Part shown: positions 14,563 through 43,052 of the stretch, piece after piece | Layout: every line of letters begins with the position of its first letter | Numbering within the stretch: position 1 is the first letter of the stretch | Assembly: GCA_038873195.1 (NCBI GenBank) | Contig: JAVZEV010000001.1 | Coordinates: forward strand, 1,330,490 to 1,394,489 | Direction of reading: 5' to 3' | DNA from: Candidatus Bathyarchaeia archaeon | Lineage (GTDB): Archaea; Thermoproteota; Bathyarchaeia; Bathyarchaeales; Bathycorpusculaceae | DNA: 64,000 nucleotides | The notes under the pieces: model-generated | The model's input: only the letters and a program-made list of their open reading frames with translations | Told to the model about the DNA's origin: nothing | The model's database searches: none | Made by a program: the position numbers and the translations under genes

Positions 14563-14624
14563 ACAGCAGCACCAATTTTCTTATACATCCAAAATCCAAA
14601 AGGGCCCGTGGCGCAGCATGGACA

Positions 14625-14640
14625 CCAAACAAGCCAAAAA
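14625..14640 (+). other. Non-canonical D-loop intron of tRNA-Arg
   Basis: These 16 bases interrupt the D loop after position 20a/21. Because an A flanks both ends, the boundary could equally be 14624-14639. Removal restores a ten-base D loop with G15, G18, G19 and A21 in the standard places. D-loop introns are known from crenarchaeal and a few other archaeal tRNAs and are uncommon elsewhere. Confidence 0.75.
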
Positions 14641-14656
14641 GCGCGTCAGCCTTCTA

Positions 14657-14674
14657 AAACTAAACATTGAAGAA
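14657..14674 (+). other. Canonical 37/38 intron of tRNA-Arg
   Basis: An 18-base insertion follows A37 of the anticodon loop. The boundary could shift by one base because A occurs at both junctions. The intron contains GAAGAA, which can pair with the CTTC of the anticodon loop, as expected for a bulge-helix-bulge substrate of the splicing endonuclease. Confidence 0.8.
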
Positions 14675-14814
14675 AGCTGAACGTCCTGGGTTCAAATCCC
14701 AGCGGGCCCGCCACCAATCGTTCGCTGTGCGAACGGAAATTTTAAATTGGTAATGCAATAATAAATGGTAAACACTCTGGTATTTGAGTTATCCTTGTAT
14801 AAGGGGGAAAAGTT

Positions 14815-16323: not shown

Positions 16324-17352
16324 ATGAAGCGAACAATAGAATGGCACAACGGAACAGTCGCCACAATAGACCAGACAAAGCTTCCGCATGAAACAGTGAT
16401 TCTTGAGATGAAAAGCTGCGATGAAGTGGCTGACGCAATAAAAACCATGAAAATAAGAGGGGCACCATTACTGGGAGCAGCTGCAGCTTTTGCTTTAGCT
16501 TTAACTGCTTACAATTCCCAAGCAAAATCCAAACAAGAGTTAATCAGAGAGTTGGAGAAATCAGCAGAAACTCTTAAGAGAACACGACCAACTGCTGTTA
16601 ACCTTTTTTGGGCGATAGACAGAATTTTAGCCAAATCAAAAAGTTTCGCTGGGAATGCTGAAGAGTTGATTGCTTTTGTTGTTGATGAAGCAAGGAAAAT
16701 AGCTGATGAAGATGCTGCGGCAAATCGTTTGATTGGCAAGTATGGAGCTGAACTTATAAGTGATGGAGATGTGGTTCTTACGCATTGCAATGCTGGCGCT
16801 TTAGCCACAGTTGAATATGGCACAGCTTTGGGCGTTATAAGAGCTGCTTGGGAACAGGGAAAAAAGATTGAGGTTATTGCTACTGAAACTCGTCCGAAAC
16901 TGCAGGGCGCAAGGTTAACAACTTATGAGCTTAAAAAGGAAGGCATCCCAGTCACTTTGATTACTGATGGCATGGTTGGTTATGTTATGTATAAACAATT
17001 GGTTAATGTGGTTGTTGTAGGAGCTGATAGGATAGTTTCTGATGCGATTATTAACAAGATTGGAACATTCGCAATTGCTGTTTTAGCTAAAGAACACCAA
17101 ATACCCTTCTATGTTGCCGCTCCAAGATCCACCTTTGACTTATCACGTAAATCGACTGAGGTTGTCATTGAAGAGAGAAAACCAGAAGAAGTCACAAATG
17201 TAGGCTCATATAGAATTGCTCCTGAAGGAATAAGCGTTCTTAACCCAGCATTCGATATAACTCCGCTGGATTATGTCACAGCAATAATTTGCGAAGACGG
17301 CGTGTTGCACAAGAAAGATTTTGGCAAATTTAAAGCCAACGTCTATAAGTGA
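16324..17352 (+). CDS. mtnA: S-methyl-5-thioribose-1-phosphate isomerase
   Basis: The 342 residues match the MtnA / aIF2B-like isomerase family: IKTMKIRGAPLLGAAAAFAL near residue 40, THCNAGALATVEYGTALGV at the catalytic cysteine (residues about 155-172), VVVGADRIVSDAIINKIGT containing the catalytic aspartate, and a C-terminal TPLDYVTAIICEDG. It converts methylthioribose-1-phosphate to methylthioribulose-1-phosphate in methionine salvage; some archaeal homologues act on ribose-1,5-bisphosphate instead. The NAGALAT and GADRI motifs favour MtnA-type chemistry. The endA gene follows 31 bases later, then hisS, probably as one operon. Confidence 0.9.
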   Translation: MKRTIEWHNGTVATIDQTKLPHETVILEMKSCDEVADAIKTMKIRGAPLLGAAAAFALALTAYNSQAKSKQELIRELEKSAETLKRTRPTAVNLFWAIDRILAKSKSFAGNAEELIAFVVDEARKIADEDAAANRLIGKYGAELISDGDVVLTHCNAGALATVEYGTALGVIRAAWEQGKKIEVIATETRPKLQGARLTTYELKKEGIPVTLITDGMVGYVMYKQLVNVVVVGADRIVSDAIINKIGTFAIAVLAKEHQIPFYVAAPRSTFDLSRKSTEVVIEERKPEEVTNVGSYRIAPEGISVLNPAFDITPLDYVTAIICEDGVLHKKDFGKFKANVYK

Positions 17353-17383: not shown

Positions 17384-17941
17384 ATGAGCAAAAGAGAAGA
17401 GAAAGAATCTACTCGTTCTGAATTCAAAGTTAAAGGCGCATTAGTAGAGAAAGGAGTTAAAATTTCTGAAAAACAGAGTGTGAATGAACTTTCTTCTCGA
17501 GGGTATGGTGTTAAAGAAAACGATGAGCTTTTGCTGACTTTTTATGAAGCACTTTACCTTTTGGATAAGGGATGGTTAGATGTTGAGACAAAAAAGGGCA
17601 AGAAGATGGATTTCCAACAGCTTCTGCGATGTTATGAGGATTTGGAGGAGAATGCATGGGTTAAGTATTTGACTTACCGAGATTTGCGAAGCCGCGGATA
17701 CACCGTTAGAGAAGGCTTCGGTTTAGGCGTTGACTTTCGTGTTTACGAAAAAGGCGAGTATGGCAAAGACACGGCTAAATACTTAATCTTAAGCATTCAG
17801 GAAGGAAAACCGATTCCGATTGAAGATTTAACGCGTATAATGCTGCAGTGCCAAAGTCTAAAGAAAGAACTAGTTTTAGCCGTGATGAACCGCAGAGGAG
17901 AAATAGTTTACTATTCGGTTTCGCAATTAACCTTAAAATAA
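17384..17941 (+). CDS. endA: tRNA-splicing endonuclease subunit lacking the catalytic His
   Basis: The 185 residues have the EndA fold: an N-terminal domain with ELLLTFYEALYLLDKGWLDV and a catalytic-type C-terminal domain starting YLTYRDLRSRGYTVREGFG. The catalytic tyrosine is present (VDFRVYEKG) and the lysine is present (SLKKELVLAVM), but the histidine normally found in an EHSxYLV-like segment is replaced: the sequence reads KDTAKYLIL. This suggests the structural partner of a heterotetrameric enzyme, with an active subunit elsewhere in the genome. The ATG at 17384 is preceded by GAGG. The gene lies between mtnA and hisS in one probable operon. Confidence 0.85.
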   Translation: MSKREEKESTRSEFKVKGALVEKGVKISEKQSVNELSSRGYGVKENDELLLTFYEALYLLDKGWLDVETKKGKKMDFQQLLRCYEDLEENAWVKYLTYRDLRSRGYTVREGFGLGVDFRVYEKGEYGKDTAKYLILSIQEGKPIPIEDLTRIMLQCQSLKKELVLAVMNRRGEIVYYSVSQLTLK

Positions 17942-17955
17942 CGGAGAAATCGTTG

Positions 17956-19251
17956 ATGCCTGCTTTCAAGACTGTTCGTGGAATGCGAGATTTTCTGCCA
18001 GAAGAAGCGAGCATGCTGAAGTTTATTGAAAACAAAGCTAGAAGAGTGGCGGAACTTTACGGATACAAAGAAGTTGTAACGCCTGTGGTGGAATCCTACG
18101 AGCTTCTTGCTGCGAAGGCTGGTGAAGAAGTTCGTTCGCGAATGTTTGTTTTCAAGGATTTAGGTGGGCGAGATGTGGCTTTGCGTCCAGAGTTTACGGC
18201 TTCTGTTGCTAGGTTGGTGGCGACAACTTTGAGAGCTGAGCCTAAACCGCTTAGGCTTTTTAGTTTTGGTACTGTTTATCGTTATGATGAACCTCAAAAG
18301 GGACGTTATAGAGAGTTTTGGCAATCGAACTACGAACTGATGGGTTCGAATAAGCCAGAGGGCGATGCAGAAATACTGATGTTGACCAATAGTCTCATGG
18401 CAACTTCTGGGTTGAAGAAGTATGTTTTCAAGGTTGGGCATGTGGGGGTTTTGAGGGGAATTTTTGTTCAAGAAGGGTTGGAGGAAGCCGTGCAAAATGC
18501 GGTTATGCAGCGGATGGATAAAAAAGAGTATGAAGTCGCGCTTAAAATGGTTAGAGATGCTGGAGCGTCTGAAAAATGCGTTAATGTTCTTCAGAAGCTC
18601 GTGAAAATTAAAGGTAGCGAAATTTTTGAGACTGTGGAAAAAATGAAGGCGGTTGTGAAGGGGTATGAGAGGGCTGTTTCTGCGATTGAGAACCTTGCCG
18701 CAATTCTAAAATTAATAGTAGAAAGCGAATGCAAAATGGATGTTATTGTTGACGCTGGATTTGCTAGAGGTCTTGAGTATTACACTGGAATGGTTTTTGA
18801 AGTATATGTGCCAGAATTTGACATAGCCTTGGGTGGAGGTGGAAGATATGACCAGCTTATCGAATTGTTTGGGGGGGAACCTACACCGGCCGTTGGTGTT
18901 GCTCATGGAATAGATAGGATAATGTTGGCGTTGCAGATGCAGAAGGCTGAAGTGGGAGCTAGGGAGAAATCTGTCATGGTTATTCCAGTTAAAGAAGAGT
19001 TGAAAGGTGAAGCTTTGAAAGTTTCAAGGTTGCTTAGAGAAGCGGATGTGCCCGTGGAAGTTGAGGTTATGGGAAGAAAAGTAACTGCAGCATTGGAAGA
19101 TGCAGATAGGAGAGGAATGAGTTACGCAATAATTGTTGGAGAAAAAGAATTAAAAGAAAACGCGGTTGCTATTCGAAATCTGGCTAAAAGAGAGCAAAAA
19201 ATTGTGAAAATTGAGAAGATAGTGGAAACAATAAAAGGTCAACATGTTTAG
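17956..19251 (+). CDS. hisS: Histidyl-tRNA synthetase
   Basis: The 431-residue class II synthetase shows motif 1 in the FKTVRGMRDFLPEEA region, motif 2 FRYDEPQKGRYREFWQ-like sequence near residue 110 (FGTVYRYDEPQKGRYREFWQ), the histidine-specific ARGLEYYTGMVFEVY motif near residue 270, and motif 3 GGGGRYDQLIELFGG followed by VGVAHGIDRIMLAL. A C-terminal anticodon-binding domain closes it. Longer upstream starts would overlap endA; the ATG at 17956 follows CGGAGAAAT. It is the third gene of the mtnA-endA-hisS run and overlaps a convergent gene by four bases. Confidence 0.96.
   Translation: MPAFKTVRGMRDFLPEEASMLKFIENKARRVAELYGYKEVVTPVVESYELLAAKAGEEVRSRMFVFKDLGGRDVALRPEFTASVARLVATTLRAEPKPLRLFSFGTVYRYDEPQKGRYREFWQSNYELMGSNKPEGDAEILMLTNSLMATSGLKKYVFKVGHVGVLRGIFVQEGLEEAVQNAVMQRMDKKEYEVALKMVRDAGASEKCVNVLQKLVKIKGSEIFETVEKMKAVVKGYERAVSAIENLAAILKLIVESECKMDVIVDAGFARGLEYYTGMVFEVYVPEFDIALGGGGRYDQLIELFGGEPTPAVGVAHGIDRIMLALQMQKAEVGAREKSVMVIPVKEELKGEALKVSRLLREADVPVEVEVMGRKVTAALEDADRRGMSYAIIVGEKELKENAVAIRNLAKREQKIVKIEKIVETIKGQHV

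Positions 19252-41557: not shown

Positions 41558-43052
<1,495 letters not shown>

Follow-up and report, generated by a model that had tools for sequence, protein, structure and literature searches.

A histidine-free EndA of Bathyarchaeia, probably the structural partner of a separately encoded catalytic subunit

The endA locus and the intron-bearing tRNA-Arg(UCU) gene

The window analysed here, a stretch of 64,000 nucleotides (C1:1330490-1394489 of assembly G000, which comprises 1.63 Mb on two contigs and is 98% complete), contains an open reading frame of 185 codons that starts with ATG at 17384 and ends with TAA at 17939-17941 (Table 1). The encoded protein belongs to the EndA superfamily, as PF01974 (tRNA_int_endo) matched with E 2e-23 (82.5 bits versus a cut-off of 27), and the EndA N-terminal domain PF02778 was likewise detected (E 3e-16, 59 bits versus a cut-off of 21). 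By sequence, the solved enzymes most closely related to it were the M. kandleri fusion (E 4e-33) and M. jannaschii EndA (1a79, E 2e-32). Upstream lies a gene which we take to be of the aIF-2B/methylthioribose-1-phosphate isomerase type (mtnA), and the downstream neighbour is presumably of the histidyl-tRNA synthetase type (hisS). The window also holds a complete archaeal 16S rRNA gene.

Table 1 Features of the window and of the second endA gene. Positions refer to the window unless stated otherwise.
Feature	Position	Strand	Basis and remarks
tRNA-Arg(UCU) gene, two introns, likely (candidate) substrate	14602..14713	+	ARAGORN after intron removal
D-loop intron, 16 nt, relaxed bulge-helix-bulge	14624..14639	+	ARAGORN trial removal and relatives
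Canonical 37/38 anticodon-loop intron, 18 nt	14657..14674	+	ARAGORN trial removal and relatives
mtnA-type gene, upstream neighbour	16324..17352	+	ORF; homologue adjacent in 58/80 named loci
endA, probable beta (structural) subunit of tRNA-splicing endonuclease, 185 aa	17384..17941	+	ORF, Pfam and alignment
Codon TAC, Tyr121, catalytic-Tyr equivalent	17744..17746	+	Alignment
Codon ACG, Thr130, catalytic-His column	17771..17773	+	Alignment
Codon AAA, Lys161, catalytic-Lys equivalent	17864..17866	+	Alignment
hisS-type gene, downstream, 14 nt after endA	17956..19251	+	ORF; adjacent in 49/80 named loci
Complete archaeal 16S rRNA gene	41558-43052		End-to-end model match, no long insertion
endA alpha gene	L001 1474-2031, G000:C1 ~820 kb	-	185 aa, intact triad

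A search of named genomes, using an alignment of this protein with 13 relatives as query, returned 80 loci, the closest of which showed 77% identity. Their titles were mostly Candidatus Bathyarchaeota, Bathyarchaeia, Bathyarchaeum or Bathycorpusculum, the rest being Nitrososphaerota, Crenarchaeota and one Microgenomates. Counting genes on the same strand within 400 bases as neighbours, both the mtnA-type and the hisS-type gene flanked the endA homologue in 36 of the 80 loci, six of the 80 having one flank of less than 900 bases. The single bacterial title belongs to MHDC01000015.1 (Microgenomates group bacterium RBG_16_45_19), which carries an EndA of the Bathyarchaeia beta type with 67% identity and is probably a misnamed or mixed bin.

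Neither ARAGORN nor Rfam at gathering thresholds returned a tRNA in the window, where the tRNA-Arg(UCU) gene is split by two introns. ARAGORN called tRNA-Arg(TCT) after removal of both introns and made no tRNA call after removal of the 18-nt intron alone; the non-canonical D-loop intron that the sequence-only reading had placed near endA is thus real, as the tRNA becomes readable only when both are taken out. Folding the precursor RNA by itself yielded no cloverleaf. By inspection, the 18-nt intron forms a four-pair CUUC/GAAG helix with three-base bulges on its flanks. A comparison of 30 loci from 40 genomes of the family, our own included, yielded tRNA-Arg(TCT) by pattern in 26 cases, 18 of which carry a D-loop insertion. 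The four-base helix between exon (ATGG/TTGG) and intron (CCAT/CTAT/CCAA/CCAG) pairs fully in 13 of these 18 loci and in three of four positions in another four, the window's own among them, while one locus (L269) has a different D-loop insertion of 44 bases. The helix covaries among relatives through an AT to TA exchange at its first pair. Two of the 26 loci (L281, L287) have an insertion at neither place, so that relatives span the range from none to both. Among 45 tRNA hits in the own genome, no other UCU tRNA was seen.

Further insertions were observed in other tRNA genes. The tRNA-Leu(TAA) gene of the own genome (G000:C1:840735-840998, minus strand) carries a D-loop insertion of approximately 35-40 bases, is readable only after its removal and likely contains a second D-loop intron; since a tRNA resulted from 45 of 60 trial cuts, the ends of the insertion are not fixed. 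A tRNA-Lys(CTT) (L295) with an apparent 28-base insertion and an odd ARAGORN placement, and a CAU-type tRNA (L031) with approximately 30 additional bases following the anticodon arm, each present a candidate intron at an unusual place.

Two EndA genes and their residues across Bathyarchaeia and the phylum

In the alignment, the segment DFRVYEKG-EYGKDTAKYLI of the protein pairs with DFRLYERGANIDKEHSVYLV of M. jannaschii EndA (1a79). In place of the Tyr-His-Lys triad of an EndA catalytic subunit it carries Tyr121, Thr130 and Lys161, which bears out the sequence-only reading in each part: Thr130 of the DTAKYLI block aligns to the His column, and the catalytic Tyr and Lys are retained. A conserved His at another place in the chain, a caveat attached to that reading, is excluded since the whole 185-aa translation contains no histidine. 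In the 80 named loci the His column holds T in 63, S in 6, A in 4, V in 4, P in 3 and H in none, while the catalytic columns hold Tyr in 80/80 and Lys in 80/80. As the replacement is common to relatives, Thr130 is neither a chance change nor the product of a sequencing error or frameshift.

An assembly-wide profile search revealed a second PF01974 match above the cut-off at C1:820284-820541 (minus strand), and the own genome therefore holds exactly two such genes, one with and one without the catalytic His. The only other match (L003) lies below the cut-off, contains internal stops and was rejected as a third EndA. The second, active EndA that had been predicted to lie elsewhere is consequently present, and it is the only one with Tyr, His and Lys above the Pfam cut-off. 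This alpha subunit of 185 aa (FAVYKYGPGVEHAPYMV ... VRKRF) has all three residues, is not encoded next to the beta gene, and aligns best with S. tokodaii 2cv8_A (E 3e-42) and A. pernix 3p1z_B (E 5e-40). Its K39 aligns to A. pernix K44 and represents a specificity-loop Lys of the crenarchaeal type; PMC6379350 attributes broad specificity to Lys44 in this loop of the A. pernix enzyme. The suggestion that a second EndA would fit the D-loop intron gains from this residue, and tRNA-Arg(UCU) with its D-loop intron is a likely substrate of the presumed alpha-beta enzyme. As the active alpha is encoded elsewhere in the genome, the missing catalytic His of beta is expected and ordinary.

To place this pair in context, we surveyed 151 genomes of the class, assigning alpha and beta by similarity and not by the triad. 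PF01974 matches were present in 148 of them, with two in 110 genomes, one in 34, three in 4 and none in 3; many of the single-match genomes are incomplete assemblies, yet they also include G001 (98% complete), G014, G034 (95%) and G130 (92%). The beta query matched at E <= 1e-15 in 131 of the 151 genomes, in two of them (G037, G042) only at the alpha level. The 131 beta rows of the class stem from 130 distinct loci in 129 genomes, L232 being a duplicate of L122 and two rows coming from G021. The 70 alpha rows are a non-random set of the 30 best-scoring and 39 hand-chosen among the matches listed, plus the own alpha (40 had been chosen by hand, one of which, L232, proved to be the duplicate beta), so that weak alphas are under-represented. 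From the phylum, 40 stretches picked to spread over families gave 32 betas, with short or fast crenarchaeal ones under-represented, as well as 7 alphas and 1 of neither type, and the phylum search contributed 35 alpha rows in total, of which 34 belong to other classes and one to the own family. As a rule, genomes of the phylum sample carry two EndA genes.

The Tyr-His-Lys triad is complete in 70/70 alpha rows of the class and 35/35 of the phylum search (105/105 sampled), while His is present in 0/131 class and 0/32 other-class beta rows; this absence from all 163 sampled rows agrees with the assignment to a structural subunit made from the window alone. In one alignment, the His column of the 131 class betas holds A 42, T 35, P 33, S 12, V 7, M 1 and Q 1, and in a separate alignment 34 of the 131 have a gap there, where the loop is shorter. 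At the specificity-loop position, alphas carry Lys (101/105) or Arg (4/105; in the class alone K 66 and R 4, n=70), and neither residue occurs in any of 163 betas. A C-terminal Trp is found in 104/105 alpha and 0/163 beta rows. In a group of loci from families f17, f21, f23 and others (L150-L193), many betas have the loop of the His column shortened by approximately 5 residues, and Phe replaces Tyr in 19 rows of this group. The one row of neither type is a third EndA in a genome of another class (L425, G182:C95); it has a full triad and equal scores against the alpha and beta profiles and, given 7% contamination of that genome, is possibly foreign.

Not all betas have lost Tyr and Lys. Both are invariant in the 54 beta rows of the own family and order, where the His column comes 97th among 217, and both are kept in 88/131 class rows; the 32 rows from other classes divide into 16 with both, 8 with one and 8 with neither. 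Weighted over all 163 rows, retention amounts to 0.81 for Tyr and 0.76 for Lys. As this places the two columns only 28th and 37th, respectively, among 217, we did not accept the conservation as strong proof of function.

Predicted fold, solved relatives and history of the two subunits

The AlphaFold model of beta reached a mean pLDDT of 85.8 and a pTM of 0.81, with a block pLDDT of 66 for residues 121-130, at the end of which Thr130 is located. Foldseek returned 1a79_A as the top match (TM 0.85, rmsd 1.7 A), which identifies the fold of a subunit with N- and C-terminal domains; weaker matches were the structural subunits 3ajv_A (TM 0.69) and 3iey_B (TM 0.63), with 2zyz_A further down. R170, R171 and E173 of beta, which align to DADGD of M. 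jannaschii, are highly conserved; this is presumably the region of L10, the acidic loop that docks into a pocket of the partner in (alpha-beta)2 enzymes.

Comparison with solved enzymes revealed partial agreement with each of them. The A. pernix (alpha-beta)2 EndA (3p1z/3ajv) shares the two genes, the alpha triad, the loop Lys (K44 versus K39 here) and a beta without a working triad; its beta, however, is far diverged and has also lost the Lys (DNHSPI), whereas the beta of the window retains both Tyr and Lys and lies nearer to M. jannaschii EndA. M. jannaschii EndA (alpha4, 1a79) is the best solved relative by sequence and fold, but has a full triad and, according to PMC6379350, forms a homotetramer, in contrast to the Thr and the second active gene found here. 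The P. aerophilum beta (2zyz_A) likewise plays the structural part in an (alpha-beta)2 enzyme and matches part of the model, but carries Met in the column of Lys161 and, according to PMC6379350, lacks the N-terminal domain, which the beta of the window keeps. M. kandleri EndA (5x89), the second-best fold match, combines catalytic and structural units; its structural unit lacks all three residues, and it was solved as a fusion.

The history of the pair was approached with a quick tree of 87 rows, in which the crenarchaeal betas form long branches. A branch with support of 99-99.7 unites all Thermoproteota alphas, the reference euryarchaeal enzymes lying outside this clade; another branch unites all betas, but its support of only 34 is too low to bear out a single beta origin with the fast crenarchaeal members included. 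Forcing the Bathyarchaeia alphas and betas into one clade cost 194 log units (p-AU 0.0001). A duplication within the class is thereby rejected, and the alpha/beta split is ancient and predates Bathyarchaeia.

A probable structural partner and its retained Tyr-Lys pair

We conclude, with a probability of about 0.93, that the endA gene of the window encodes beta, the structural subunit of an (alpha-beta)2-type EndA whose two genes arose by ancient duplication. Alpha would since have retained the Tyr-His-Lys triad, the Lys of the specificity loop and the Trp at the C terminus, while beta would have lost the histidine but preserved the fold. Alpha and beta may accordingly assemble as a heterotetramer of two alpha and two beta chains, in which presumably non-cutting beta chains would bring the active site of each alpha to one of the two bulges of a pre-tRNA. 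What speaks against a purely structural beta is that Tyr and Lys, which are not obviously required for that role, are kept in most rows. The largely complete genomes with a single PF01974 match and the low support of the beta branch also weigh against the overall reading.

The same two residues, Tyr121 and Lys161 in 54/54 rows of the own family and order, together with the intact predicted fold, would also suit a beta that still acts as a nuclease, with Thr130 or another residue in place of His, as a second active subunit with altered chemistry. We regard this as very improbable, given that the class betas show no single fixed replacement at the His column, with a gap there in part of the rows in one alignment, and that the protein offers no histidine at all. 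A recent, lineage-specific duplication followed by decay of an active EndA toward a pseudogene could explain why only His is lost while Tyr and Lys remain, but the reading frame is open, the sequence is conserved over the class and the order with mtnA and hisS is kept, which rules out a pseudogene; the rejection of a single alpha-beta clade for the class leaves this course of events hardly any weight.

The homotetrameric nature of the nearest solved structure and the separate location of the alpha gene would be in line with a beta homo-oligomer that binds RNA or serves as a scaffold, without catalysis and apart from alpha. The rule of two EndA genes per genome in the phylum sample and the fold matches to the structural subunits 3ajv_A, 3iey_B and 2zyz_A argue against such an independent role, which we consider most unlikely, and are consistent with beta as the partner of alpha.

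The (alpha-beta)2 type is already known, and the known picture of the enzyme is unchanged by our results. According to PMC4090602, Nanoarchaeota, Thaumarchaeota and Crenarchaeota possess alpha2beta2 enzymes together with numerous unusual tRNA introns; PMC4033280 proposes a korarchaeal alpha2 type with the specific loop, and PMC12918454 reports four known forms in a classification of EndA that covers Bathyarchaeia among other genomes. The one mildly unusual feature is the conservation of Tyr and Lys in beta after the loss of His, of which the searched parts of the literature made no mention. The sequence-only reading had seen nothing out of the ordinary for a structural subunit in the kept Tyr and Lys; this holds for the present lineage but not for the textbook beta, as Lys is gone from the beta chains in the A. 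pernix and P. aerophilum structures and its retention is therefore typical of this lineage. Since every sampled beta is without His but only some of them lack Tyr or Lys, His appears to have been lost before Tyr and Lys, an order that lies beyond proof by the tree.

Rather unlikely, though worth stating, is that the kept Tyr-Lys pair constitutes a selected pseudo-active site, maintained after the loss of His or the shortening of its loop, so that the loss of His alone would have made beta a dedicated partner. This proposal would cover most sampled Thermoproteota lineages outside the fast crenarchaeal ones, and, if true, the pair would grip or position the RNA or hold the alpha-beta interface. 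Overall, gene content and residues over the 151 sampled genomes fix the enzyme type for Bathyarchaeia, the beta described here changes more slowly than the solved crenarchaeal ones and is thus useful for studying the order of active-site decay, and the two-intron tRNA-Arg(UCU) gene near endA provides a ready test substrate.
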